The notes under the pieces were generated by a model. The model worked only from the letters and a program-made list of their open reading frames with translations, had not been told where the DNA came from and ran no database searches. Positions 11,460 to 29,382 of a stretch of DNA of 64,000 bases are shown one piece after another. The first letter of the stretch is position 1; every line of letters starts with the position of its first letter. Source of the DNA: Paenibacillus albicereus (GTDB lineage Bacteria; Bacillota; Bacilli; Paenibacillales; Paenibacillaceae); NCBI RefSeq assembly GCF_012676905.1, contig NZ_CP051428.1:473501-537500 (forward strand), read 5' to 3'. The position numbers and the translations under genes were made by a program.

Positions 11460-14400
11460 CTAGGCTTGCAGCCGCTTCAGCAGCCGCTGCACCGCGACAG
11501 CGGCTTCGGCGCGGGTAAGCTCCGCCTGGGGCCGGAACGTGCCGGCCGCATCGCCTTGCAGCAGGCCGGCTTCGTAAGCGGCGGCGACGGACGGCGCGGC
11601 CCAGGCCGCGATCGCGGCGGCATCGGCCGCAGCCGGCCGGCTCCCGGCAGCCGCCTCGAGCGGCTTGCCCGCCGCAGCGGCGGCGCGGACGAGCATGGCC
11701 GCCAGCTGCTCGCGGCTCAGCGGCGCTGTCGGCGCGGCGCTGCCGTCCGCCTGGCCGCGGAGGATGCCTGCGTCCTTGGCGGACGCTACGGCATCGGCGT
11801 ACCAGGCGCCCGGGGCGACGTCGGCAAAGCCGGTCGCGGCGCTGCCGGAGGCGCCAAGGCCAAGCGCCCGGACGAGCATGGCCGCCAGCTCCGCGCGGTT
11901 GACGGACTGGCCGGGCAGGAAGCCAGCCTCGCCGGCGCCTTGCACGATGCCTTTGGCCGACAGGCTGGCGATGTCCGCCTGGGCCCAGTGGCCAGCCGGC
12001 ACGTCGGCGTAAGCGACGCTCAGCTCCAGTACGGCGTAGCGTCCGGCCGAGAGCGCTTCGGCGCTCCATTCGCCGCCCGCAAGCCGGGAGCCGAGCTGGT
12101 AGATGGGCGCGCCTTCCTCGCTCAAGCGGAAGATGCCGGAGCGCTCCGCGTCGGAGCCGCTCGCCGCGCTCAGCTTGAGCCGGATGGCAGCCTCCTCGAG
12201 CGGCAGCTCCCGGCCGTCCGCGGCGACATAGCCGACGGCGAGCTCGATCGCGCCGCCTGCGGCGGCATACGCTCGGCGGCCCGGCTGCTGCAGCCGCTGC
12301 AGCTGCTTCTCCACGCCGCCCGCTGCGCTGAGGCGGATCGACAGCGGGCCGTCGCCGGCTTGCCGCCACAGCTTGCGCAGCTCATCGCCGGACAGCTCGG
12401 CGCTCAGGCCGGGCAGCTCGATGCGGAGTCCGGCGGACAGCCGCTCCTTCAGCTCGGCGCCGAGGCGGACGGTCGCCGCTCCGTCCAGCTTGAGGACGGC
12501 AGCCTCGCCGGCATCGCCGACCAGCTGGCCCGGCGCCACGGCGACGATGCCGCTGCTGGCGCCCGGCGTCGGCGTGGCGGAGGCGCTCGGAGCCGGTGTA
12601 GCGCTCGGAGCCGGAGTCTTCTCCGGCGCCGGCGTCGGCGTGCCCGGAGGCTCGCTCGTAGCCGGAGGCTCGCCCGTGCCCGGAGGCACGCCCGTGGCCG
12701 GAGGCTGCCCCGTAGCCGGAGGCTCGCCCGTAGCCGGAGGCTCGCCCGTAGCCGGAGGCTGCCCCGTAGCCGGAGGCTGCCCCGTAGCCGGAGGCTCGCC
12801 CGTAGCTGGGGGCTCGCCCGTGGCCGGAGGCTCGCCCGTAGCCGGGGGCGAGCCCGTAGCCGGAGGCTCGCCTGTAGCCGGAGGCTCGCCTGTAGCCGGA
12901 GGCTCGCCTGTAGCCGGAGGCTCGCCCGTAGCCGGAGGCTCGCCCGTAGCCGGAGGCACGCTCGTGCCCGGAGGCTCGCCCGTAGCCGGGGGCTCGCCCG
13001 TAGCCGGAGGCTCGCCCGTGGCCGGAGGCTCGCCCGTGGCCGGAGGCTCGCCCGTAGCCGGAGGCTCGCCCGTGGCCGGAGGCTCGCCCGTGGCCGGAGG
13101 CTCGCCCGTGGCTGGAGGCTCGCCCGTAGCCGGAGGCTCGCCCGTGCCCGGCAGGTCGCCGGTCCGCGTCAGCCGGATGTCGTCGAAGTAGCCCCAGGCC
13201 GCGCCGGGCGCCTCGACGTCGAAGCCGATCGTCACCTGGCCGTTCCCGACTTCGATGCCGCTGACGTTGTATTCCTTCCACACGTTCCACCCGGCATTGG
13301 CCATGTCCGTGCTCCAGCGCGAGCCGATGCCCGTCTCGGCGTAGAGCTGCAGCTTCGTCTCGCCGCCTGCGCCGGATGCGGCGGCCGTGAGCTCGTACAC
13401 GCCTTTCGGCAGCCCGCTCACGATCTGCGTCAGCGAGAAGCGGTACGGATCGCCATGCCAGTAGTTGAACGCATGCGTGCCGGCATGGGCATTGGCGGCA
13501 TTGTTCTCCACCTTGCCCGCGCCGGCCGTGCCGCCGAGCGTCCAGCCGGTCAGGTCGCCGCTCTCGAAGCCGGGGTTCTGCACGGGGTTCGTCTCCGGCG
13601 CCTTCACCAGCTCGAAGTCGTCCAGATACCCCCACGTGCCGCCCGGAGCCTCGACGTCGAAGCCGACCGTCACTTGTCCGTTCGTCACCTCGATCTCCTC
13701 GACGGCGTACGGCTTCCAGACGTTCCAGCCCGTATTGACGGCATCCGCGCCGAGCGGATCGCCCCCGTGCCCTTCCGCGAACAGCCGCAGCTTCGCCTCG
13801 CCGCCGCCGCCCGACGCCCAGGCGCTGAGGCGGTACATGCCGTTTTCCAGCCCCGTCACCGTCTGGCTGATGCGGTAGCCGTAGTCCGAGCCATGATAAT
13901 AGTTGACGGAATGCCCGCCGCCATGCGCGTTGCCCGCTTCATTCGACAGCTTGGCCGCGCCCTCGGTGCCGGTCAGCGTCCAGCCGGCCAGCCCCCCTTG
14001 CTCGAAGCCCGGATTCGTCAAAAGGTTCGGGTTGTCGACGACCTTCACCTGCACGACAGCCCGCATGGACGCGTCCACGCCCGCGACAGTGCCGCGCACC
14101 TCGTACGTCCCCGGCACCTCCCACTGGCCCGGATCCGCCGGCTCGTCCCAGACGACCGCCCGCTGCTCGATGCTGCCTTCGCTGAGCAGCACGTCGGCCT
14201 CGGCCGGCAGCTCCGGCGCGGAGCCGGCGCTTGCGGTCACGTCCAGAGAGCGGTACACGAGCAGCGGCTTGATGTCGTCCCCGTCGCCCGGCACGAACCG
14301 GAACGCATTCAGCGAATCCAGGGCATTGCCGTCGAAGTCGAACATCGCCTGGTTCTCCCACGCATTGCCCTCGCCGGCTTTCCAGCCGACACCCGCCAGC

Positions 14401-15434
14401 CAGGCCGGCTCCCAGTAGAAGACGCCGAGCCCTTTGCCGCCCTGCACATGGGCGACCGTGTTCAGGATGAGCTCGGTGACGAGCTTCTGGCTCGCGACGC
14501 TCGCCTCGAAGCCGGTCAGCGTCGCTTGCGCCTCGCCGGCGATGTTGCCGTGTCCGTCCGCATCCTCGAGCGTGTACGGGTAGGCCGTCTCCGCGATGAC
14601 GACTTCCTTGCCGTAGCGGGCCGCCAGATCGTCCATATTGCTCTTGAGCTCTTGGAACGTGCCGTGCCAGTATGGATAATAGGACAGCCCGATGACGTCG
14701 TAGTCGATGCCCTGCAGCCGCGCCTGGTCGAAAAACGTCCGGAACTTCGCGTTGCTGCCGCCTTCGGCCAGATGCAGCATGATCTTCGTCTCGTGTCCGG
14801 CCGGCGTCGTCTCGCGCACCGCGCGCACGCCCTCGGACAGCAGCTGCGCGAGCTGCGCGAAGCGGCCGGTCGAGCCGTCCGGCAGCAGGATGCCGGAGTT
14901 GATCTCGTTGCCGATCTGCACCATGTCCGGGTAGGCGCCCTCGGCGAGCAGCTCGTCCATCACCTCGCGGGTGTAGCCGTAGACCGCCGTCTTGAGCTCC
15001 TCGAAGCCGAGCGAAGCCCAGGCGGCAGGCTTGACCTGCTGGCCGGGGTCCGCCCAGAAGTCGCTGTAATGGAAGTCGACGAGCAGGCCCATGCCGGCGG
15101 CCTTCACCCGCTTGGCCATCTCGATGAGATGGGCCTTGTCGTTGTAGCCGTCCGCTTGGACGGGATCGTTCCACAGGCGCAGGCGCACGTAGTTGACGCC
15201 ATGCTCCTTGAGGATCGCGAGCAGGTCGCGCTCGGTCCCTCCGTCATAGAATCGGACGCCCTTGTCCTCGAGCGCTTGCAGCGTGGAGATGTCTACGCCT
15301 TTGATGAAGCCGTCCCGGTCGGACGAAGCGGCCGCCTCGACGGCCGATCCTCCTGCCGGCAGGCCGAGTCCGGCCAGTCCGACGACGAGCGCCAGCACGG
15401 CGGCGCCGAGTCGGCGCAGCAGCTTGGTATGCAC
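11460..15434 (-). CDS. SLH-anchored GH53 arabinogalactan endo-beta-1,4-galactanase
   Basis: 1324 aa, GTG start with a GGGGGA ribosome binding site. Order: signal peptide (1-35); GH53 TIM barrel (about 40-390) with acid/base E177 in VQIGNEIN and nucleophile E282 in VIAETAYPY; Big_4-like domain (405-468); two CBM-like modules starting NPGFEQGG and NPGFESGD (468-610, 615-758); a linker of about 30 GEPPATG-type hexapeptides (762-945); an uncharacterised beta-rich segment (960-1140); three C-terminal SLH domains (1142-1324). It should cleave beta-1,4-galactan of pectin side chains at the cell surface. SLH anchors are at the opposite end from those in the GH16 enzyme. Confidence 0.93.
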   Translation of the reverse strand: MHTKLLRRLGAAVLALVVGLAGLGLPAGGSAVEAAASSDRDGFIKGVDISTLQALEDKGVRFYDGGTERDLLAILKEHGVNYVRLRLWNDPVQADGYNDKAHLIEMAKRVKAAGMGLLVDFHYSDFWADPGQQVKPAAWASLGFEELKTAVYGYTREVMDELLAEGAYPDMVQIGNEINSGILLPDGSTGRFAQLAQLLSEGVRAVRETTPAGHETKIMLHLAEGGSNAKFRTFFDQARLQGIDYDVIGLSYYPYWHGTFQELKSNMDDLAARYGKEVVIAETAYPYTLEDADGHGNIAGEAQATLTGFEASVASQKLVTELILNTVAHVQGGKGLGVFYWEPAWLAGVGWKAGEGNAWENQAMFDFDGNALDSLNAFRFVPGDGDDIKPLLVYRSLDVTASAGSAPELPAEADVLLSEGSIEQRAVVWDEPADPGQWEVPGTYEVRGTVAGVDASMRAVVQVKVVDNPNLLTNPGFEQGGLAGWTLTGTEGAAKLSNEAGNAHGGGHSVNYYHGSDYGYRISQTVTGLENGMYRLSAWASGGGGEAKLRLFAEGHGGDPLGADAVNTGWNVWKPYAVEEIEVTNGQVTVGFDVEAPGGTWGYLDDFELVKAPETNPVQNPGFESGDLTGWTLGGTAGAGKVENNAANAHAGTHAFNYWHGDPYRFSLTQIVSGLPKGVYELTAAASGAGGETKLQLYAETGIGSRWSTDMANAGWNVWKEYNVSGIEVGNGQVTIGFDVEAPGAAWGYFDDIRLTRTGDLPGTGEPPATGEPPATGEPPATGEPPATGEPPATGEPPATGEPPATGEPPATGEPPATGEPPGTSVPPATGEPPATGEPPATGEPPATGEPPATGEPPATGSPPATGEPPATGEPPATGEPPATGQPPATGQPPATGEPPATGEPPATGQPPATGVPPGTGEPPATSEPPGTPTPAPEKTPAPSATPAPSASATPTPGASSGIVAVAPGQLVGDAGEAAVLKLDGAATVRLGAELKERLSAGLRIELPGLSAELSGDELRKLWRQAGDGPLSIRLSAAGGVEKQLQRLQQPGRRAYAAAGGAIELAVGYVAADGRELPLEEAAIRLKLSAASGSDAERSGIFRLSEEGAPIYQLGSRLAGGEWSAEALSAGRYAVLELSVAYADVPAGHWAQADIASLSAKGIVQGAGEAGFLPGQSVNRAELAAMLVRALGLGASGSAATGFADVAPGAWYADAVASAKDAGILRGQADGSAAPTAPLSREQLAAMLVRAAAAAGKPLEAAAGSRPAAADAAAIAAWAAPSVAAAYEAGLLQGDAAGTFRPQAELTRAEAAVAVQRLLKRLQA
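12648..13150. repeat. 18-bp coding repeats for the GH53 linker
   Basis: Near-identical 18-bp units encode E-P-P-A-T-G about 28-30 times. Variants give GSPPATG, GQPPATG and GTSVPPATG. The array is prone to length change by slippage and produces a spurious plus-strand open frame of GGSPVA repeats. Confidence 0.9.
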
Positions 15435-17850: not shown

Positions 17851-18405
17851 ATGAGGGGAAAGCTGGATTATTTGCAGCATCTCGGGGAGGGCTATGACCG
17901 CGGGGCCGTGCTGGAGCAGCTGATGGAGCGGTTCGGCGGGGACGTGTGGCGCTTCGCCTTCTTTTTGACCGGAAGCCGGGAGGCGGCGGACGACGTGTCG
18001 CAGGAGACGTTCCTCGCGGCTTACCGGTCGCTCTACTCGTTCCGGGGCGGGGAGGCTTCGGCCAAAAGCTGGCTGCTGAAGATCACGCGCAACAAGGCGC
18101 TGCATCAGCTGCAGGGAGCGTTCCGCCGCCGGGTCCGGCTCACGGGACGGCCGCCGGCTTCCGGGGCGGAGCCGGCGGCGGAGCAGATCCATTTCGCCCG
18201 GGCCGAGCGGGCGGAGCTGTGGACGGCCGTGCTGGCGCTGCCGCTCAAGCTGAAGGAAGCGCTGCTGCTGGACTTTCACTATGGCATGAGCCTGCGCGAG
18301 ATCGCGGAGCTGACCGGCGTGCCGGAGGGCACCGTCAAGTCGAGGATTCATCGGGCGAAAAAGAAGCTGCGGGCTCAGTTGGGGGGAATGGACGATGGAC
18401 GATAG
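17851..18405 (+). CDS. ECF RNA polymerase sigma factor
   Basis: 184 aa. Region 2 (about 20-85) includes VWRFAFFLTGSREAADDVSQETFLAAYRSL; region 4 (about 125-178) includes LREIAELTGVPEGTVKSRIHRAKKKL, a canonical sigma HTH. The stop overlaps the start of the next gene by 11 bp, which codes for a membrane protein with a cytoplasmic N-terminus, the usual anti-sigma arrangement. Confidence 0.92.
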   Translation: MRGKLDYLQHLGEGYDRGAVLEQLMERFGGDVWRFAFFLTGSREAADDVSQETFLAAYRSLYSFRGGEASAKSWLLKITRNKALHQLQGAFRRRVRLTGRPPASGAEPAAEQIHFARAERAELWTAVLALPLKLKEALLLDFHYGMSLREIAELTGVPEGTVKSRIHRAKKKLRAQLGGMDDGR

Positions 18406-19603
18406 GCGGTTGAGAGAAGCGCTGCAGGAGCTGCCGCTGGCGGGACCCGAGTTCCGGCCGGAGCTGAAGGCGCTCGTGCGGAGGCGGGCGGCGGCGGAAG
18501 GCGGCCAGGTGGGGGGGCGAAGGCCGGACCCGGAACGGACGGATTTGGAAGGCGTTCGTCCGGCCAGAGGCGGCCCGGCGGACGCGGCCGGCGAGCATCA
18601 TCCGGGACGGACCGTGCCGGATGCGGCCAGGAGCGGCTCCGCAGACCAGGGCGGCGCGCGGCCGGACAGGGGCTGCCCGGCCGATCGGGCGGGCTCGTCC
18701 GCGCTGGAGCCGGTCCCTCGGCGGGCCAGCCGACCGCTCCGCGGCCGGAGCCGCCTGCGCTGGCTCGTGGGCTCGGCGGTGGCGCTGGTCCTGCTGGCGG
18801 CGCTGCTGCCGCCGGACTTGTGGCGCGGGCAGTCGCCCGCTGCTTCCGTTGCCGTAGAGAGGCTGGCGTACGAGCGGGACGGCAAGGTCGTGCTGCAAGC
18901 TTTTCCCGAAGGGAACGGGCTGAAGGCTGGCCTGCGGCAGGGCCTCCTGCTCGTGTTCGACGAGCCGACGTCCGCTCATCGGGGCGAAGAGGTGACCGTG
19001 ACGGCCGTGCACGAGGCGACGGGGGCGAGGGAGACGATCGCCGATGCGCTTGTCGGAGAAGCCGGGCCGGACAGCCAGCCGCTGGAGCGCTTCGGAGCGA
19101 GCTTCGTCCTTCCCTATGGCGGCATGTGGCGGGTGGAGGCGACGCTTGACGGGACCTTCTACGGCGACGTCGTGCTGGCTGCGGCCGAGCCTGAGCCGGC
19201 GGAGAGCCCGTTGTTCCTGTCCAGGACGTATTCGTCCGAGACGCAGTCGTACTCCACGCAGCCGATGCGGGGCGAGGAGGGGCGGGTCGGCATCCTGGAC
19301 GTCGCGTTCACGGCAGGGAGGAGCCAGAAGGTCATGTGGCATTTCTGGGAAAGGAACTTCGGCGAGCTGGACGGCGAATTCGTCGTCCGGGCCGTTCGAC
19401 CGGGAAGCGCCGAGCCCCTCGACGTTTATCCGCAGGTCGGTCCGCCGCCTCGACTCGGCGGCCCGCTGAGCGGCGCGGACCGCCATCTGCCGACCGGCAT
19501 CGCGCTGCCGGAGCCGGGGCTGTGGCGGCTGCTTCCGTACGTGGACGGCCGGCTGATCGGCTCGATCGTCGTCCGCGCGCAGGAGGCGTCGGCTGCGGAG
19601 TGA
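18395..19603 (+). CDS. Membrane-anchored putative anti-sigma factor
   Basis: 402 aa. Residues 1-30 look like the short cytoplasmic anti-sigma start; 35-122 is an unusually Arg/Gly/Pro-rich low-complexity stretch; one TM helix at about 125-145 (LVGSAVALVLLAALLP); the rest (150-402) is an extracytoplasmic beta-rich domain with LSRTYSSETQSYSTQ, resembling DUF4871-type domains. No ZAS zinc motif (His-x3-Cys-x2-Cys) is visible. The overlap with the sigma gene indicates translational coupling. The anti-sigma role is inferred from position and topology. Confidence 0.7.
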   Translation: MDDRRLREALQELPLAGPEFRPELKALVRRRAAAEGGQVGGRRPDPERTDLEGVRPARGGPADAAGEHHPGRTVPDAARSGSADQGGARPDRGCPADRAGSSALEPVPRRASRPLRGRSRLRWLVGSAVALVLLAALLPPDLWRGQSPAASVAVERLAYERDGKVVLQAFPEGNGLKAGLRQGLLLVFDEPTSAHRGEEVTVTAVHEATGARETIADALVGEAGPDSQPLERFGASFVLPYGGMWRVEATLDGTFYGDVVLAAAEPEPAESPLFLSRTYSSETQSYSTQPMRGEEGRVGILDVAFTAGRSQKVMWHFWERNFGELDGEFVVRAVRPGSAEPLDVYPQVGPPPRLGGPLSGADRHLPTGIALPEPGLWRLLPYVDGRLIGSIVVRAQEASAAE

Positions 19604-19707: not shown

Positions 19708-19737
19708 TTGCGGGACGGAAAGCGGCTGTGCTACACT
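19708..19737 (+). promoter_or_regulatory. Promoter of the hflX leader
   Basis: TTGCGG (19708-19713), 18 bp, then TGC directly before TACACT (19732-19737), an extended -10. Predicted start near 19744, giving a leader of about 460 nt before hflX. Confidence 0.6.
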
Positions 19738-19816
19738 CGTAGCAATCAAGCGCGAAAGCCGTCCGCGGGCCGTCAGGCCCCAGCCGGGCGGCTCGCGATC
19801 GAACGGAGGGTTACGT

Positions 19817-19855
19817 GTGATTCATTCGATTCGGATCCGCACGGTGCGTCGCTAA
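19817..19855 (+). CDS. hflX leader peptide with R-x-R arrest motif
   Basis: GTG-initiated 12-codon ORF encoding MIHSIRIRTVRR, with GGAGGG six bases upstream. From memory, the macrolide-sensing ErmDL leader begins MTHSMRLR, so the pattern M-x-H-S-x-R-x-R is shared position by position. The arrest motif R-x-R (residues 6-8) is the plus-x-plus motif at which macrolide-bound ribosomes stall. Too short for homology statistics; the call rests on ribosome binding site, position and motif. Confidence 0.65.
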   Translation: MIHSIRIRTVRR

Positions 19856-20137
19856 TTGAATAGCGCCCATGTTCTGCCTTTGTGCAGGGATCTCGAATCG
19901 TGGATGAATCCACGGTCATAGCTTTGACGCGCCTCTTTCGCGCCTCCCCGTTTCTTCGTCGGCTTCGGCCTTCAGGAGCGGGGCGGCGACGAGGTCGCCT
20001 CTTCCGTCCGCGGAGGACTCCATCTGTCCGGCCGGAGAGCGGCGCGGCGGCATGCTGCCGTCCGCGCTCCCTCCGGGCGCCGCTGCCATGCGGCGGCGCG
20101 GACGGAAGACGAAGCCGATCCATTCTGCATAACTGCG

Positions 20138-20165
20138 AACACGGGCCGCTAGGTCCGTGTTTTTT
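20138..20165 (+). terminator. Attenuator terminator upstream of hflX
   Basis: AACACGGGCC and GGTCCGTGTT (one G-T wobble) with loop GCTA, followed by TTTTTT. It lies between the hflX promoter and start codon, so hflX needs antitermination or readthrough. Confidence 0.8.
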
Positions 20166-20205
20166 CATACCTGAATTTCCCCAAGACAGAGAGGATGATC
20201 CCGAT

Positions 20206-21510
20206 ATGACACATTCCAACCAACACCCCCGCGAGCGCGCGATTCTCGTCGGCGTGCACGAGCAGAACAACCACCAGTTCGCCTACTCCATGCAGGAGCT
20301 GCAAGGGCTGGCCGAAGCCTGCAACATCGAGGTCGTGGCCGAGCTGACGCAAAAGGCGGAGCGCATCCACAGCACGCACTACCTCGGCTCCGGCAAGCTC
20401 GAGGAGCTGGCGGCGCTCATGGAGGCGTACGATTCTCCGACCGTCATCTGCAACGACGAGCTGTCGCCTTCGCAGATCCGCAACCTCGAGGCCGCGGTCA
20501 AGACGAAGGTCATCGACCGCACGATCGTCATCCTCGACATCTTCGCCGAGCGGGCGCAGACGAAGGAAGCTCAGCTGCAGGTCGAGGTCGCGCGCCTGAA
20601 CTACATGCTGCCGCGCCTCGTCGGCTTGCGCGAGTCGCTCGGCCGCCAAGGCGGCGGAGGCGGAGCCGGCCTGCGCAACCGCGGCGCGGGCGAGACCAAG
20701 CTGGAGCTGGACCGCCGCCGCATCGAGGAGCGCATCCACCTGCTGGAGACGGAGCTCGAGAAGCTCGTCCACCAGCGGCAGGTGCAGCGCAAGCGCCGCA
20801 AGAAGAACGAGATTCCCGTGCTGGCGCTCGTCGGCTATACCAACGCCGGCAAGTCGACGCTGCTGAACGCGCTCGTCGATACGTTCCACCCCGACTCCGG
20901 CAAGAACGTGCTCGCCAAAGACATGCTGTTCGCCACGCTGGAGACGTCGGTGCGCAGCATCGAGCTGCCGGATCGCAAGTCATTCCTGCTGACCGATACG
21001 GTCGGCTTCGTCAGCGGGCTGCCCCATCATCTCATCAAGGCGTTCCGCTCGACGCTGGAGGAGGTCGCCGAGGCCGACCTGCTCGTGCATGTCGTCGACT
21101 CCTCCAACCCGGAGTTCAAGCAGCAGATCGAGGTCACCGAGCAGACGCTCAAGGAGCTCGGCGCGGACGGCATCCCGATGCTGTACGCCTTCAACAAGGC
21201 GGATCTCGCCGGCCAGAGCTACCCGCGCGTGGAGCAGGACCGGGTGTACCTGTCCGCCTACAAGCGCGAGGGCGTCGACGAGCTCGTCGCGCAGATCCGC
21301 AAGCAGATTTTCCGCGATTACATCGCCGCCGAGGTCGTCGTGCCCTTCGACCAGGGAGCTTGGGTGTCGTTCTTCAACGAGCATGCCCACGTGCAGGAGA
21401 CGGAGTACGAGGAGGCCGGCACGCGCCTCAAGCTCGAGGTGCGCGAGGCGGATCTGAACCGCTTCTATCAGGAGACAGGCGCGGAGCGGCAGCCGGCGGC
21501 TCGGGAGTAA
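20206..21510 (+). CDS. hflX: GTPase HflX, ribosome-splitting/rescue factor
   Basis: 434 aa. The N-terminal HflX domain carries THYLGSGKLEEL and the Gly-rich loop GRQGGGGGAGLRNRGAGETKLELDRRR, followed by the G domain: G1 GYTNAGKS (210-217), G3 DTVG (from D264) and G4 NKAD (from N330). HflX binds the 50S subunit and splits stalled or antibiotic-bound 70S ribosomes. The frame is open far upstream, but those codons encode Arg-rich sequence across the leader and terminator, so the start is the ATG at 20206 after GAGAGGA. Confidence 0.95.
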   Translation: MTHSNQHPRERAILVGVHEQNNHQFAYSMQELQGLAEACNIEVVAELTQKAERIHSTHYLGSGKLEELAALMEAYDSPTVICNDELSPSQIRNLEAAVKTKVIDRTIVILDIFAERAQTKEAQLQVEVARLNYMLPRLVGLRESLGRQGGGGGAGLRNRGAGETKLELDRRRIEERIHLLETELEKLVHQRQVQRKRRKKNEIPVLALVGYTNAGKSTLLNALVDTFHPDSGKNVLAKDMLFATLETSVRSIELPDRKSFLLTDTVGFVSGLPHHLIKAFRSTLEEVAEADLLVHVVDSSNPEFKQQIEVTEQTLKELGADGIPMLYAFNKADLAGQSYPRVEQDRVYLSAYKREGVDELVAQIRKQIFRDYIAAEVVVPFDQGAWVSFFNEHAHVQETEYEEAGTRLKLEVREADLNRFYQETGAERQPAARE

Positions 21511-21559
21511 GGCGGGCATCCGGTCGAGAAGGCGCGGTTCGGGCGGAAGGCCGGAGCGA

Positions 21560-21784
21560 TGGAACCAAGGCACAAACGTGCCTTGAATGGTCCCAAGTGC
21601 GGCCGTAGCGATGGATCCAAGGCACAAACGTGCCTTGGATGGTCCGGAGTGCGGCCGGAGCGATGAATCCAAGACACAAACGTGCCTTGGATGGTCCGGA
21701 GTGCGGCCGTAGCGATGGAACCAAGGCACAAACGTGCCTTGGTTGAGCCGGATTACGGCCGTAGCGATGGAACCAAGGCACAAA
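21560..21784. repeat. 52-bp tandem array with a hairpin in each unit, 3' of hflX
   Basis: CCAAGGCAC-type arms start at 21565, 21617, 21669, 21721 and 21773, exactly 52 bp apart, each followed by a 4-nt loop (AAAC) and GTGCCTTGG (except the last, which is split by the IS; its right half resumes at 23067). Units also share GGCCGTAGCGATGG. The array starts about 50 bp after the hflX stop. Confidence 0.9.
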
Positions 21785-21828
21785 TGGACCTCTGTCAAGA
21801 AAGTGGACACCTTAGTAACGGACGGAGT

Positions 21829-22698
21829 TCAGGCAGTCCCGTCGAATTCAGCCGCGAATCGCACGGGGGACAGATAACCAAGCGAGCCGTGGATTCGCTT
21901 GCGGTTGTAAAAGAATTCAATGTAGCGGTACATGTCTTGCGAGGCTTGCTTTCGGGTCAAGAATCGCGTGCAATAGACGAGTTCTTTTTTGAGAATGCTG
22001 TGGAACGATTCCATGCTCGCATTGTCATAGCAGTTGCCTCTGCGGCTCATGCTGGCGGTCATGCCGTACTGCTCCAGCTGGCTTCGGTAGGCTTCCGAGG
22101 CGTACTGACTGCCTCGGTCCGAATGGTGCACCAGACCAGCAGGCGGCCCCTTGCTCGCGTAGGCTTTCTCCAGCGCATCCAAAACAAGCTCAGCTTTCAT
22201 ATGGCCTGCAAGCGTCCAGCCGACAATCTCACGGGTGCACAAATCCATGACGCTCGCTAAATACAATCGCCCTTCCCGACAAGGAATGTAGGTGATATCT
22301 GCCACCCATACTTGGTTCGGCAGTTCGACGTCGAACTGCTGGTTCAGGAGATTCGGAGCGATGGGCTGGTCATGATTCGAGTCGGTCGTCGACACCCGGA
22401 AACGGCCAGAAACGCAAGCGCGAAGCTTCATTTCGGCCATGTAGAGACTGACGGTACGTTCGGAAATGGCGTATCCCTCTCGCCGGAGCAGCACGGTGAG
22501 CTTCGGGGCTCCATACCGCCGCTGGGCATCATGAAAGTGGAACCGAATCCGTTCTTGGATGTCCGCTTTAAGCCGTGCCCGGGCGCTGGGAAGCGCCTGG
22601 CTCCATTTGTAGAATCCGCTCCGCGACACTTGCATGACCTTGCACAACTTCTTCAACGGAAAATCGGAGCGGGAGTCCTCTATGAACTGAAATCTCAT
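21829..22698 (-). CDS. IS3-family transposase OrfB (DDE integrase core)
   Basis: 289 aa. An HTH_21-like region (about 45-100) precedes an rve domain with the DDE residues in WVADITYI, HHSDRGSQY and NASMESFHSILKKE. The ATG overlaps the orfA stop (ATGA). Normally the active transposase is an OrfAB fusion made by -1 frameshifting; the frame is open back to the slippery site. Appears intact. Confidence 0.93.
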   Translation of the reverse strand: MRFQFIEDSRSDFPLKKLCKVMQVSRSGFYKWSQALPSARARLKADIQERIRFHFHDAQRRYGAPKLTVLLRREGYAISERTVSLYMAEMKLRACVSGRFRVSTTDSNHDQPIAPNLLNQQFDVELPNQVWVADITYIPCREGRLYLASVMDLCTREIVGWTLAGHMKAELVLDALEKAYASKGPPAGLVHHSDRGSQYASEAYRSQLEQYGMTASMSRRGNCYDNASMESFHSILKKELVYCTRFLTRKQASQDMYRYIEFFYNRKRIHGSLGYLSPVRFAAEFDGTA

Positions 22699-22997
22699 TT
22701 CCGTGGATTGCTGAAGATGTGCACCGCCTTTTTTACGATGGCCAGCTCTTCTTCCATCTCGCTGATCTGGCGTTCCTTCGCTTTGAGCTGTGCTTTCAGC
22801 TCCCGGATCAGCTCGGCGTTGTTCACCGGTTCATTCTCGAATTCCCGATACTGAGCCAGCCACTGATGCAACGTGCTCTTGGGAATGTTCAGTTCTTCGG
22901 CAATGTCTCCCAGCGACTTGGTCTGTTCTTGAATGAACTTTACGGTTTCTTTCTTGAACTCTTCGTTGTAATGCTGACGCCTACGTTCCTCTGTCAT
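22695..22997 (-). CDS. IS3-family transposase OrfA (HTH/leucine zipper)
   Basis: 100 aa. N-terminal HTH_Tnp_1 domain (NEEFKKETVKFIQEQ ... DIAEELNIPKSTLHQWL) followed by a leucine-zipper-like coiled coil (about 55-90). The start at 22997 has GGAGGTG seven bases upstream; an upstream ATG at 23021 is less likely. Confidence 0.9.
   Translation of the reverse strand: MTEERRRQHYNEEFKKETVKFIQEQTKSLGDIAEELNIPKSTLHQWLAQYREFENEPVNNAELIRELKAQLKAKERQISEMEEELAIVKKAVHIFSNPRK
22728..22734 (-). promoter_or_regulatory. Programmed -1 frameshift site A-AAA-AAG
   Basis: In orfA the codons GTA AAA AAG form the heptamer A AAA AAG in the correct phase. Slippage by -1 enters the orfB frame, open from there, giving an OrfAB fusion as in IS150-type elements. 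Confidence 0.75.
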
Positions 22998-23111
22998 GAG
23001 AACACCTCCACATACGGTCATTATTGTCTGTCCGTTAGAGGGTGTCCACTTTTTATTCTAGTTGCAAAACGTGCCTTGGATGAGCGGATTTCGACTCGGT
23101 TCCAATTAAAG

Positions 23112-23277: not shown

Positions 23278-23592
23278 TTACCCGAGCGCCTTCAGGCCGA
23301 CGGCCGCGCCGAGCACAAGCGTGATGCAGAGGATGCGCAGGACGCTGCGCGACTCGCCGAAGAACAGCATGCCGACGATCGCTCCGCCGGCCGCTCCGAT
23401 GCCGGTCCAGACCGCATAGGCGGTGCCCATCGGCAGGTCGCGCATCGCCAGGCTGAGCAGCAGGAAGCTGAGCAGGAAGCCGGCGGCCAGCAAGGCGAAG
23501 TTCGCGAAGCTGCGGCGTTCGTTGAGCCGGTTCATCATCGTCACGCCGAACACCTCGCACAGCCCTGCGCCGATCAGATACACCCAGGCCAT
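23278..23592 (-). CDS. ykkD: SMR-family guanidinium exporter subunit YkkD
   Basis: 104 aa, four TM helices. Contains the essential glutamate in LIGAGLCEVFGV and the SMR signature PMGTAYAVWTGIGAAGG. It starts one base after the ykkC stop (TGACATG) and pairs with YkkC as a heterodimer. The guanidine-I riboswitch upstream fixes the likely substrate as guanidinium rather than biocides. Confidence 0.92.
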   Translation of the reverse strand: MAWVYLIGAGLCEVFGVTMMNRLNERRSFANFALLAAGFLLSFLLLSLAMRDLPMGTAYAVWTGIGAAGGAIVGMLFFGESRSVLRILCITLVLGAAVGLKALG

Positions 23593-23593
23593 G

Positions 23594-23944
23594 TCAGACC
23601 GCCTCCTTTCCGGACTTGTCGGCCGCCGGCTCGTGGCCGAGCAGCTTGAGGCCGACGACCCCGATCAGCAGCACGCCGATCAGGGCGAGCTTGACCGGCT
23701 TGACCGGGTCGCCAAAAACAATCATTTCGGCCAGTACGGTGCCGGCCGTGCCGAGTCCGACGAAAACCGCATAGACGGTGCCCACGGGCAGGTGGCGGGC
23801 CGCGTTCAGCAGCACGTAGAAGCTGATGAGGATACAGACCGCGGTCAGCGCCCATTCGAGCGCCGTATCGGCATGCTTGAGGCCGATGACCCAGCCGACC
23901 TCGAACACGCATGCGCCGACGATTTGAAGCCAGTACCGATTCAT
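23594..23944 (-). CDS. ykkC: SMR-family guanidinium exporter subunit YkkC
   Basis: 116 aa, four TM helices. The pattern [19 protein letters not shown] carries the membrane glutamate, and [22 protein letters not shown] is very like Bacillus YkkC. The start at 23944 has AAAGGGG upstream. First gene of a two-gene operon behind a riboswitch and terminator. Charged C-terminal tail. Confidence 0.92.
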
Positions 23945-24051
23945 GAAGAAGTCCCCTTTCGATCGCAGCTCTTTGCTGCGTGTTCTCTTGCCGCGCTTCG
24001 GACGGCCGCCGTTTCCAGTATGCCCCATCCTGCGCAGGAGATGCCCGCAAG

Positions 24052-24097
24052 AAAGCCCGGAAGACAGCCGCCAAAGCGGCGGTCATCTCCCGGGCTT
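24052..24097 (-). terminator. Expression-platform terminator of the guanidine riboswitch
   Basis: On the minus strand AAGCCCGG pairs with CCGGGCTT, with an inner ACCGCCG/CGGCGGC-like stem, followed by TTCTT. The 5' arm overlaps the conserved 3' part of the aptamer, so ligand binding would prevent termination. Confidence 0.7.
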
Positions 24098-24192
24098 TTG
24101 TCCCTCCGTGTCTGCGCGGCCATGTCGGCCGTGCCGTTCCCTCTCGGACCAGTCCGGCGCTCGCTGACGCCGCGGAACCCTAGGCAACTGAT
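24085..24192 (-). ncRNA. Guanidine-I (ykkC) riboswitch
   Basis: On the minus strand the conserved blocks appear in order: CTAGGGTTCCG, GACTGGTCCGAGAG and ACACGGAGGGACAAAAGCCC, ending in CGGGAGA. These are the hallmark sequences of the guanidine-I aptamer. It lies between a strong promoter and ykkC, so guanidine should switch on the exporter. Confidence 0.95.
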
Positions 24193-24199
24193 TCCCGCC

Positions 24200-29096: not shown

Positions 29097-29114
29097 GAGA
29101 AGGCACAGCGGATG

Positions 29115-29382
29115 ATGGCAGCGGGAGAGATTGCCTGCAGGACCGGGGCGACGCCGAAGGAGCAACCTGCACGCAGGGGAATCTCTCAGGCAAAAGGACC
29201 TTTGCCGGACGCAGCTCTGGAGAGCATTCCGCGCCGCCTTGCGGACGGCCGATCGGGCAACGAAAGCCCTCGGCTCGCCCGCAAGGCGGCGCGTCGGAAT
29301 CACCCAAGGGGAAACTTCATGGCGCCGATATCGCGGCGCTGGCGGAGGCAACTCTCAGGTACAAGGGACAGAGCGGTGGAAT
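29115..29382 (+). ncRNA. Tandem glycine riboswitch
   Basis: Two gcvT-type aptamers in series. The first has GGGAGAGA, GCCGAAGGAGCAACC and TCTCAGGCAAAAGGACC, closed by CTCTGGAGAG. The second has a long variable arm, then GGAGGCAACTCTCAGGTACA and GGACAGAG. It precedes serine dehydratase genes, so glycine probably induces serine breakdown. Confidence 0.93.

Follow-up and report, generated by a model that had tools for sequence, protein, structure and literature searches.

How is hflX, the gene of a ribosome-rescue factor, controlled in Paenibacillus albicereus? The question is raised by a window of 64,000 nt, the whole stretch of DNA that was analysed (contig NZ_CP051428.1, assembly GCF_012676905.1, positions 473,501 to 537,500, forward strand), in which hflX follows a promoter, a 12-codon open reading frame (ORF) and a terminator. 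The original prediction, made from the sequence alone, described this leader as a macrolide-type ribosome-stalling attenuator with an ErmDL-like peptide, and the analysis supports it in outline. The 5' leader of hflX is very probably (a probability of about 0.86) a ribosome-operated, macrolide-responsive transcription attenuator of the ErmD/ErmK-HflXr kind. The parts of the leader, their conservation, the covariation of the domain that holds the leader ORF (the OFF domain), codon choice that serves its helix, the complementarity of the arms, the homology to the ermD leader and the presence of such leaders before erm, mph and macrolide esterase genes were all computed. Stalling, drug induction, and termination and readthrough in the host are what we infer.

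The mechanism would run as follows. Without drug, ribosomes would translate the 12-codon leader and then leave. The vacated leader ORF would pair with the RNA directly downstream of it in the 28-bp OFF helix. The terminator would form because this helix locks away a short proximal element, and transcription would end near position 20165. When free, the proximal element would pair with the 5' arm of the terminator once that arm is made, and RNA polymerase would read on. Readthrough would yield the ribosome-splitting factor HflX, which would rescue drug-stalled ribosomes.

The promoter, leader ORF, two stems and terminator of the original prediction are all present in the sequence, the ORF starting with GTG, and the ribosome binding site that it called good is a Shine-Dalgarno (SD) sequence, GGAGGG. 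Inspection gave a spacing of 18 nt between TTGCGG and TACACT in the promoter. Promoter and terminator were both absent from the output of simple strict-consensus scans, the promoter being missed because it is non-consensus. The terminator folds as an 11-bp hairpin in RNAfold and is separated from the leader ORF by about 280 nt of RNA. When 19738-20137 was shuffled 2000 times with its dinucleotides kept, an SD followed by a short ORF of the form M....R.R arose 6 times. The host genome is 5.17 Mb. A search of this genome found a single HflX gene, the second-best protein match being a GTPase stretch at 33% identity. The host is close to Paenibacillus pasadenensis, and the HflX of the nearest genome is 98% identical. 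A contig of P. pasadenensis DSM 19293 carries the same leader and an HflX that is 98% identical.

Conservation was examined with a covariance model, R1, built from 41 hflX leaders of other genera; leaders of the window's genus and of ermD were left out of its training. The window genome has one R1 match, and the next-best match within the window reaches only 11.8 bits. Window-type hflX was found in seven of eight genomes of the genus, and all seven loci carry the leader, the extended -10 and the terminator. The eighth genome has only a second hflX type, 44% identical to the first, and the two types are separate HflX paralogues. At three loci of the second type there was no leader and no R1 match; the gene there adjoins an ATPase gene which we take to be spoVK. 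Some HflX is present in 393 of 394 genomes of the family. The upstream regions that were read belong to the 90 best-scoring proteins, 7 from the genus plus 83 others, and are not a random sample; 80 of these window-type regions contain the leader (76 by a strict pattern and 4 by a looser one). R1 matched 88 of the 90 loci at E <= 0.001, a count that includes its 41 training sequences; L071 was missed and L076 had an E-value of 0.006. An extended -10 pattern lies no more than 130 nt 5' of the leader at all 76 loci scanned. It is 39-45 nt before the leader start codon at 66 of these, and 88 nt before it in the window. The hflX of the window is classed, on sequence, as a putative leader-controlled, HflXr-like type.

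Most leaders begin with GTG and have the form MID[F/Y]IR[V/I]R[T/S]LRG. Among the 80, L075-L077 differ in that their RLR leader is of another kind and begins with ATG, and L048 has R-V-K. H3 together with S4, as in ErmDL and in the M-x-H-S-x-R-x-R pattern that the original prediction proposed to look for, was found only in the window and its closest relative among the 80, most of which carry D3 with Y4 or F4.

In the window the leader ORF is one strand of the 28-bp OFF helix. RNAfold of single sequences gave a similar fold in members of differing sequence, with the leader ORF paired to the RNA directly downstream. A small hairpin is present inside the OFF domain of many relatives, beside the inner helices. 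When 76 leaders were simply aligned with MAFFT, RNAalifold returned this kind of small hairpin only, because the family is very conserved and the window's genus was misaligned, and the covariance-model route was therefore taken. In 66 distinct R1 matches (alignment A3) 34 of 45 pairs had changed on both sides and 90.2% of cells were paired, compared to 11-16 pairs and 39-47% for slid-structure controls on the same sequences. In 22 more distant sequences (alignment A4) the values were 36 of 45 pairs and 86.6% (slid controls 9-20 pairs and 31-47%). Both sets of counts lean towards the model because the alignments were fitted to R1. The counterparts of the window's inner helices, helices 8-10 of A3, covary. 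Clear double changes were seen in just a few pairs within the 41 close hflX leaders, and the evidence of covariation lies in the divergent sets.

The codons of the leader are chosen for pairing in the OFF helix. Each of 75 leaders was compared to 300 synonymous recodings matched for guanine plus cytosine content. The real codons were among the best 5% for helix stability in 67 leaders and among the best 1% in 37. For the window leader one of 300 recodings was as stable. Eight leaders failed the 5% level, including L027 at 164 of 300. L074-L077 were left out of the RNAalifold and recoding sets, and one further sequence containing N was left out of the recoding set.

The proximal element is complementary to the 5' arm of the terminator because it resembles the 3' arm. 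In many genera a proximal TCTGCCTGTGT faces a terminator arm ACACAGGCAGA. In the window's genus the proximal sequence is GCCCATGTTC and the arm is GAACACGGGC or a close form, so that both strands have changed relative to the other genera. Similar terminator cores are shared by hflX, erm and mph loci, mostly CACAGGC/GCCTGTG and, in the window's genus, ACACGGGC/GCCCGTGT or near. At 44 of 74 hflX loci the longest ungapped proximal match reached 9 bp or more, and at 10 of the 74 the best ungapped match lay outside the proximal element. Permuted arms equalled the pairing of the proximal region with its own terminator arm in 0 of 5000 permutations, in 74 loci and again in 63, counts that are inflated by the relatedness of the loci. 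A matrix of arm scores by class was made from 63 loci, five of 68 R1 matches without a terminator being left out. Proximal regions of the window's genus scored 21.9 with their own arms and 17.5, 17.7 and 16.7 with the arms of erm, other hflX and mph loci. The proximal regions of erm, other hflX and mph loci scored 16.9, 17.5 and 16.0 with the arms of the window's genus. Matched changes in its two strands look to have shifted the antiterminator of this genus into a new register. Loci with unlike or weak terminators (L045, L075, L076, L077 and L094) and L074, where none was found, were left out of the 74-locus arm test and of the footprint tests described below; one further locus containing N was left out of the latter, leaving 73.

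The RNA extends well beyond the hflX genes of one genus. In the family, R1 matched 280 of 394 genomes (15 of 19 genera). In the order it matched 230 of 392, of which 51 belong to other families, and in the class 84 of 398, of which 54 belong to other orders, with matches in 34 of 146 genera. The three genome draws overlap and the E-values are rough. Sixty R1 loci, in three sets of 20, were examined downstream with five reference proteins. The first set was picked partly for lacking a window-type hflX or for having several matches; the second and third were drawn from longer match lists, and each contains one genome that contributes two loci. A downstream ORF with a match to a reference was found at 58 of the 60 loci, and the first such ORF was mph at 22, hflX at 16, erm at 16 and macrolide esterase at 4. 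The two remaining loci held an MFS transporter gene and an ORF that matched nothing in Pfam. By set, the genes were 9 erm, 4 mph and 7 hflX in the first; 9 mph, 7 hflX, 2 esterase, 1 erm and 1 without match in the second; and 9 mph, 6 erm, 2 hflX, 2 esterase and 1 MFS in the third. Five scanned Erm proteins exceeded the NCBIfam cut-off of NF000499 and two scanned esterases that of NF052610. Two scanned Mph proteins matched macrolide phosphotransferase models with E-values of 1e-85 to 1e-90, below the allele cut-offs. A DNA pattern of SD and start gave 60 named loci, 57 from Paenibacillus or Cohnella and 3 from Bacillus sp. These comprised 46 window-type hflX, 4 mph, 1 erm and 9 without a reference match, several of the last at sequence ends. 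When five of the nine were re-examined with the esterase reference added, a further erm and an esterase came to light. Macrolides are the cue suggested by mph and esterase genes; erm and hflXr also concern lincosamides.

The link to ErmDL came from plasmid records. The ermD or ermK leader of Bacillus licheniformis was reportedly described by Kwak et al. in 1991. A blastn search of plasmid records with one leader of the class gave five Priestia matches and one B. licheniformis match, with 77-79% identity across 56% of the query. The P. megaterium record has the leader before the gene of a putative RNA methyltransferase and a gene of the msr-type ABC-F kind. The leader that precedes ermD in the B. 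licheniformis record reads MTHSMRLRFPTLNQ and is followed by a similar core and a CACAGGC/GCCTGTG terminator. R1 matched this ermD leader (L274) with 25 bits and an E-value of 3.6e-5 in a 55-kb search, E-values again being rough. On ErmDL, macrolide-bound ribosomes are described as stalling when codon 7 occupies the P site and Arg8 the A site (PMC8298421). Codons 7 and 8 of the window leader are at 19835-19837 and 19838-19840, and its R6-I7-R8 sits in the same register, with Ser4, Arg6 and Arg8 at the same places as in ErmDL. The likeness to ErmDL proposed in the original prediction was borne out, and on this sequence evidence the window leader is judged to share descent with the ermD leader RNA.

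Taken together, these leaders probably represent an RNA sensor of common origin, with the leader ORF built into the OFF helix, that is portable within the Bacilli beyond the order. The four macrolide-resistance gene families that it would precede (hflX, erm, mph and macrolide esterase) are unrelated to each other, and once it would precede an MFS gene. The long-studied ErmDL leader would be a member; in the window's genus the sensor would have a shifted antiterminator and control the only HflX found in the window's genome.

Some variants were seen among the loci outside hflX. Seven erm loci (L133, L134, L140, L141, L142, L143 and L150) have tandem leader domains. No terminator was found after the second tandem leader in the five erm loci examined, and this second leader may act on translation because no terminator follows it. 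At L131 (1-1280) a leader-controlled hflX is followed directly by an erm gene that has a leader domain to itself, which places two switches in series. Other leaders end right after Arg (MIDCSR, MIDFSR, MAHFFRLR and MANFIRWR, among L153, L174, L230, L232, L197 and L201), and MIN or MID followed by an immediate stop was seen before an esterase (L197) and before an ORF that looks esterase-like by eye (L201). These very short versions may cause stalling at the stop codon, unless they are not leaders at all. Esterase leaders at L240, L241 and L270 have no R-x-R (MLDNSNSG[I/V]LGFTN and a longer one), and R1 still matches the locus; another macrolide class is possibly sensed there.

The effect of a stalled ribosome was modelled by masking its footprint. 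With the mask at codon 7, antiterminator pairing rose at 45 of 73 loci and fell at none, and the terminator fell at 30 and rose at none. With three other assumed 5' ends the antiterminator rose at 42, 42 and 38 loci and fell at 0, 0 and 2, and the terminator fell at 29, 27 and 25 and rose at none. A mask of the same length in the insert between OFF domain and terminator had no such effect on antiterminator or terminator. The 5' end used for the window in the 73-locus test was 19785. In the window, before the terminator arm is made, the OFF helix has a probability of 0.97 for two 5' ends. The complete free RNA of the window is in the OFF state, with 0.97 for the helix and 0.99 for the terminator. 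A clear switch was obtained for the window only with the 5' ends 19779 (antiterminator from 0.02 to 0.75) and 19785 (from 0.00 to 0.49-0.58). In one run over six assumed 5' ends, with the terminator's 5' arm just completed and a ribosome on codon 7, the pairing of 19865-19874 with that arm reached 0.82 for five ends and 0.58 for the sixth; the same five gave 0.81 with no ribosome.

A number of results weigh against the attenuator reading. Six of eight 5' ends, among them the predicted transcription start at 19742-19744, gave no clear switch in the window: with only the 5' arm of the terminator made, the antiterminator was at 0.75-0.81 without a ribosome and 0.78-0.82 with one. The finished window terminator, with a ribosome on codon 7, kept 0.94-0.99 for six 5' ends and 0.55 for 19779. 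The equilibrium model of the window therefore switches weakly, and the order of folding would have to drive the switch. Attenuators often work by order of folding. The pairing of proximal element and terminator arm has one mismatch in the window, ungapped proximal matches do not exceed 7 bp at 25 of 74 hflX loci, and at mph loci the own-arm score of 17.1 is no better than the swapped scores of 16.0-18.3. The fitting of A3 and A4 to R1 favoured the structure that was counted. The window leader has I7 instead of L7 and a GTG start. The R-x-R motif alone proves nothing, because altering residues before R-L-R alleviates arrest in ErmDL (PMC8298421). According to the same source, stalling with telithromycin needs both Arg residues, residues 4 and 5 matter with erythromycin, and of the changes to Ser4 only Ala or Gly kept stalling. 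Footprints on codons 1, 4 and 8 act like one on codon 7, and a mask just 5' of the ORF also raises pairing.

The result for codons 1, 4 and 8 would suit a general stalling sensor, for which several elongation inhibitors would be cues and macrolides one of many, and Listeria hflXr is described as responding to lincomycin as well as erythromycin (PMC6310831). Such a sensor is unlikely, although it retains some plausibility. Codons 6 and 8, with their conserved R-x-R, make up the register of drug-specific stalling, as described for ErmDL (PMC8298421), and such a register would be superfluous for general sensing. The gene families behind such leaders are macrolide-related.

The weak equilibrium switching of the window would also suit a decayed leader, in which control had been lost in the window's lineage and hflX, the only copy found, had become constitutive. 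The single HflX gene and the drift of the proximal element and terminator arm from the family sequence could be read in the same way. Against such decay, the two strands have drifted in step (21.9 for their own pairing against swapped values of 16.0-17.7), codon choice still serves the helix, and leader, extended -10 and terminator are kept at all seven loci of the genus. Loss of control is improbable.

Still less probable is an arginine attenuator, in which the Arg-rich leader (R6, R8, R11 and R12) would sense low charged transfer RNA for arginine or slow translation rather than a drug. Four of 12 codons in the window are for Arg, and hflX encodes a general ribosome-rescue factor. However, R6 and R8, or slightly shifted equivalents, are retained among relatives, where the Arg codons further on are variable; similar domains precede erm, mph and macrolide esterase genes with a macrolide as the plausible cue, and the ermD leader is a member of this RNA family too.

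A riboswitch, with the drug bound directly by the RNA domain and leader translation dispensable, would account for a compact, conserved and covarying domain, but it is hardly credible given that ORF, SD and R-x-R are conserved as coding sequence, that Rfam gave no known riboswitch aptamer and nothing credible in the leader region (two sub-threshold rows at chance level), that the homologous ErmDL is described as acting through ribosome stalling (PMC8298421) and that induction of Listeria hflXr is described as lost when ErmC protects the ribosome (PMC6310831).

Within the attenuator as favoured here, one element of the original prediction was rejected. It had placed the switch in a stem of 20000-20012 with 20097-20109 that competes with one of 20058-20066 with 20097-20105. 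Both stems are perfect in the window (TCTTCCGTCCGCG at 20000-20012 and CCGTCCGCG at 20058-20066, with a common 3' arm from 20097), yet they lie inside a species-specific insert that differs between species in length and sequence, the distance from leader stop to HflX match being 209 to 594 nt. In the closest relative, with an HflX 98% identical, the 3' arm is already altered. What is conserved as the switch is instead the domain around the leader ORF (19801-19924), together with pairing between 19865-19874 and the terminator's 5' arm. Of the conservation expected for leader ORF and stems, that of the ORF was found and that of the stems was not. The stretch 19940-20175 is more stable than its shuffles (z -6.2). 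The features of the leader are listed in Table 1.

Table 1. Features of the hflX leader region, in coordinates of the 64,000-nt window.
Feature	Position	Strand	Details and basis
Sigma-A-type promoter	19708..19737	+	-35 TTGCGG at 19708-19713; extended -10 TGTGCTACACT at 19727-19737
Whole leader domain matched by R1	19801..19924	+	60.1 bits, E 9e-16
Shine-Dalgarno GGAGGG of leader ORF	19805..19810	+	inside conserved box GAACGGAGGGTT[A/G]CGTGTG
OFF helix, 5' strand	19814..19842	+	3 nt before start, codons 1-8 and first bases of codon 9; RNAfold of 19795-19940
Leader ORF, 12 codons	19817..19855	+	GTG start, stop TAA, peptide MIHSIRIRTVRR; R6-I7-R8
OFF-domain inner helices	19843..19878	+	19843-19845/19876-19878, 19846-19849/19869-19872, 19850-19854/19861-19865; RNAfold
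Proximal element, predicted antiterminator strand	19865..19874	+	GCCCATGTTC; complementary at 9 of 10 positions to GAACACGGGC (20137-20146)
OFF helix, 3' strand (anti-antiterminator)	19882..19914	+	pairs with 19814-19842, 28 bp; RNAfold, covariation
Variable insert with the two stems of the original prediction	19930..20136	+	alignment and reading of 26 loci; not conserved
Intrinsic terminator	20137..20165	+	GAACACGGGCC-GCTA-GGTCCGTGTTTTTT; arms 20137-20147 and 20152-20162
hflX	20206..21510	+	ATG at 20206; TIGR03156, 446 bits

Directly 5' of the hflX leader (17851-19603, plus strand) is the gene of an ECF-type sigma factor, followed by an ORF without an NCBIfam match. Immediately 3' of hflX (21540-21790) are repeat units around AACCAAGGCACAAACGTGCCTTG, beside what is presumably an IS3-type transposase pair (21829-23021, minus strand). 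Elsewhere in the window a Guanidine-I riboswitch (24085-24194, Rfam) precedes two small ORFs resembling SMR transporters, named from sequence alone (23278-24194, minus strand). A glycine riboswitch aptamer (Rfam RF00504, 68.8 bits) is located at 29112-29211 on the plus strand. A large secreted-looking protein with a long GEPPAT repeat is encoded at 11460-15434 on the minus strand, where the opposite strand is also open.

Attenuation of hflX by an R-x-R leader is already known. In Listeria monocytogenes, hflXr (lmo0762) with its rli80 leader is described as induced by lincomycin through a 14-codon RLR leader whose start codon is needed, as responding to both lincomycin and erythromycin, and as losing induction when ribosomes are protected by ErmC (Duval et al. 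2018, PMC6310831). As described, that system resembles the window in that a short R-x-R leader ORF and a regulated terminator precede the gene of a rescue factor of the HflX type. It differs in its 14 codons and RLR, and in that Listeria has a second hflX while one was found in the window genome. The ErmDL-ermD/ermK leader shares R6-x-R8, the R1-matched domain, the core CTCTG...GCAGAG...CGGGAT..GTCTG, the terminator core CACAGGC/GCCTGTG and, by its description, transcription attenuation (PMC5418344, PMC8298421, PMC6333372), ermK being classed as a transcription attenuator (PMC5418344). Unlike the window leader, it controls a 23S ribosomal RNA methyltransferase, starts with ATG, has RLR rather than RIR and is a weaker match to R1 (25 compared to 60 bits). 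The mef/mel (msrD), ermB and ermC attenuators are alike, as described, in that a macrolide-stalled leader peptide switches RNA structure; ermB and ermC are classed as acting on translation (PMC5418344), unlike the transcription attenuator proposed for the window. The uORFC-6-1 motif is described as a covarying structure of Bacillales, mostly 5' of hflX, with an Arg-Leu-Arg leader, 51 examples and a proposed function (Brewer et al. 2021, PMC8632094). It is like the window domain, by that description, in its occurrence in Bacillales, its covariation and its R-x-R leader upstream of hflX. It differs in having RLR and in lying wholly downstream of the start codon, and no link to erm, mph, esterase or ErmDL was seen in its description (PMC8632094). 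It may be a glimpse of the same RNA.

In the open-access literature, judged mostly from listings, no RNA architecture shared by hflX, erm, mph and esterase genes and including the ErmDL leader was found, nor such control of Paenibacillus hflX, nor a leader RNA for mph or macrolide esterases. What looks new here is one RNA architecture across four macrolide-resistance gene families, together with the shifted antiterminator of the window's genus. ErmDL, Listeria hflXr and perhaps uORFC-6-1, which the literature consulted treats one by one, and the mph and esterase cases are joined by it into an apparent single RNA family. Inducible macrolide-resistance genes can be searched for with the model, and the leaders can be compared to ask which of their residues determine drug specificity. 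A further suggestion is that Paenibacillus and its relatives induce HflX-based ribosome rescue in response to macrolides, also in a species in which no second HflX was found.

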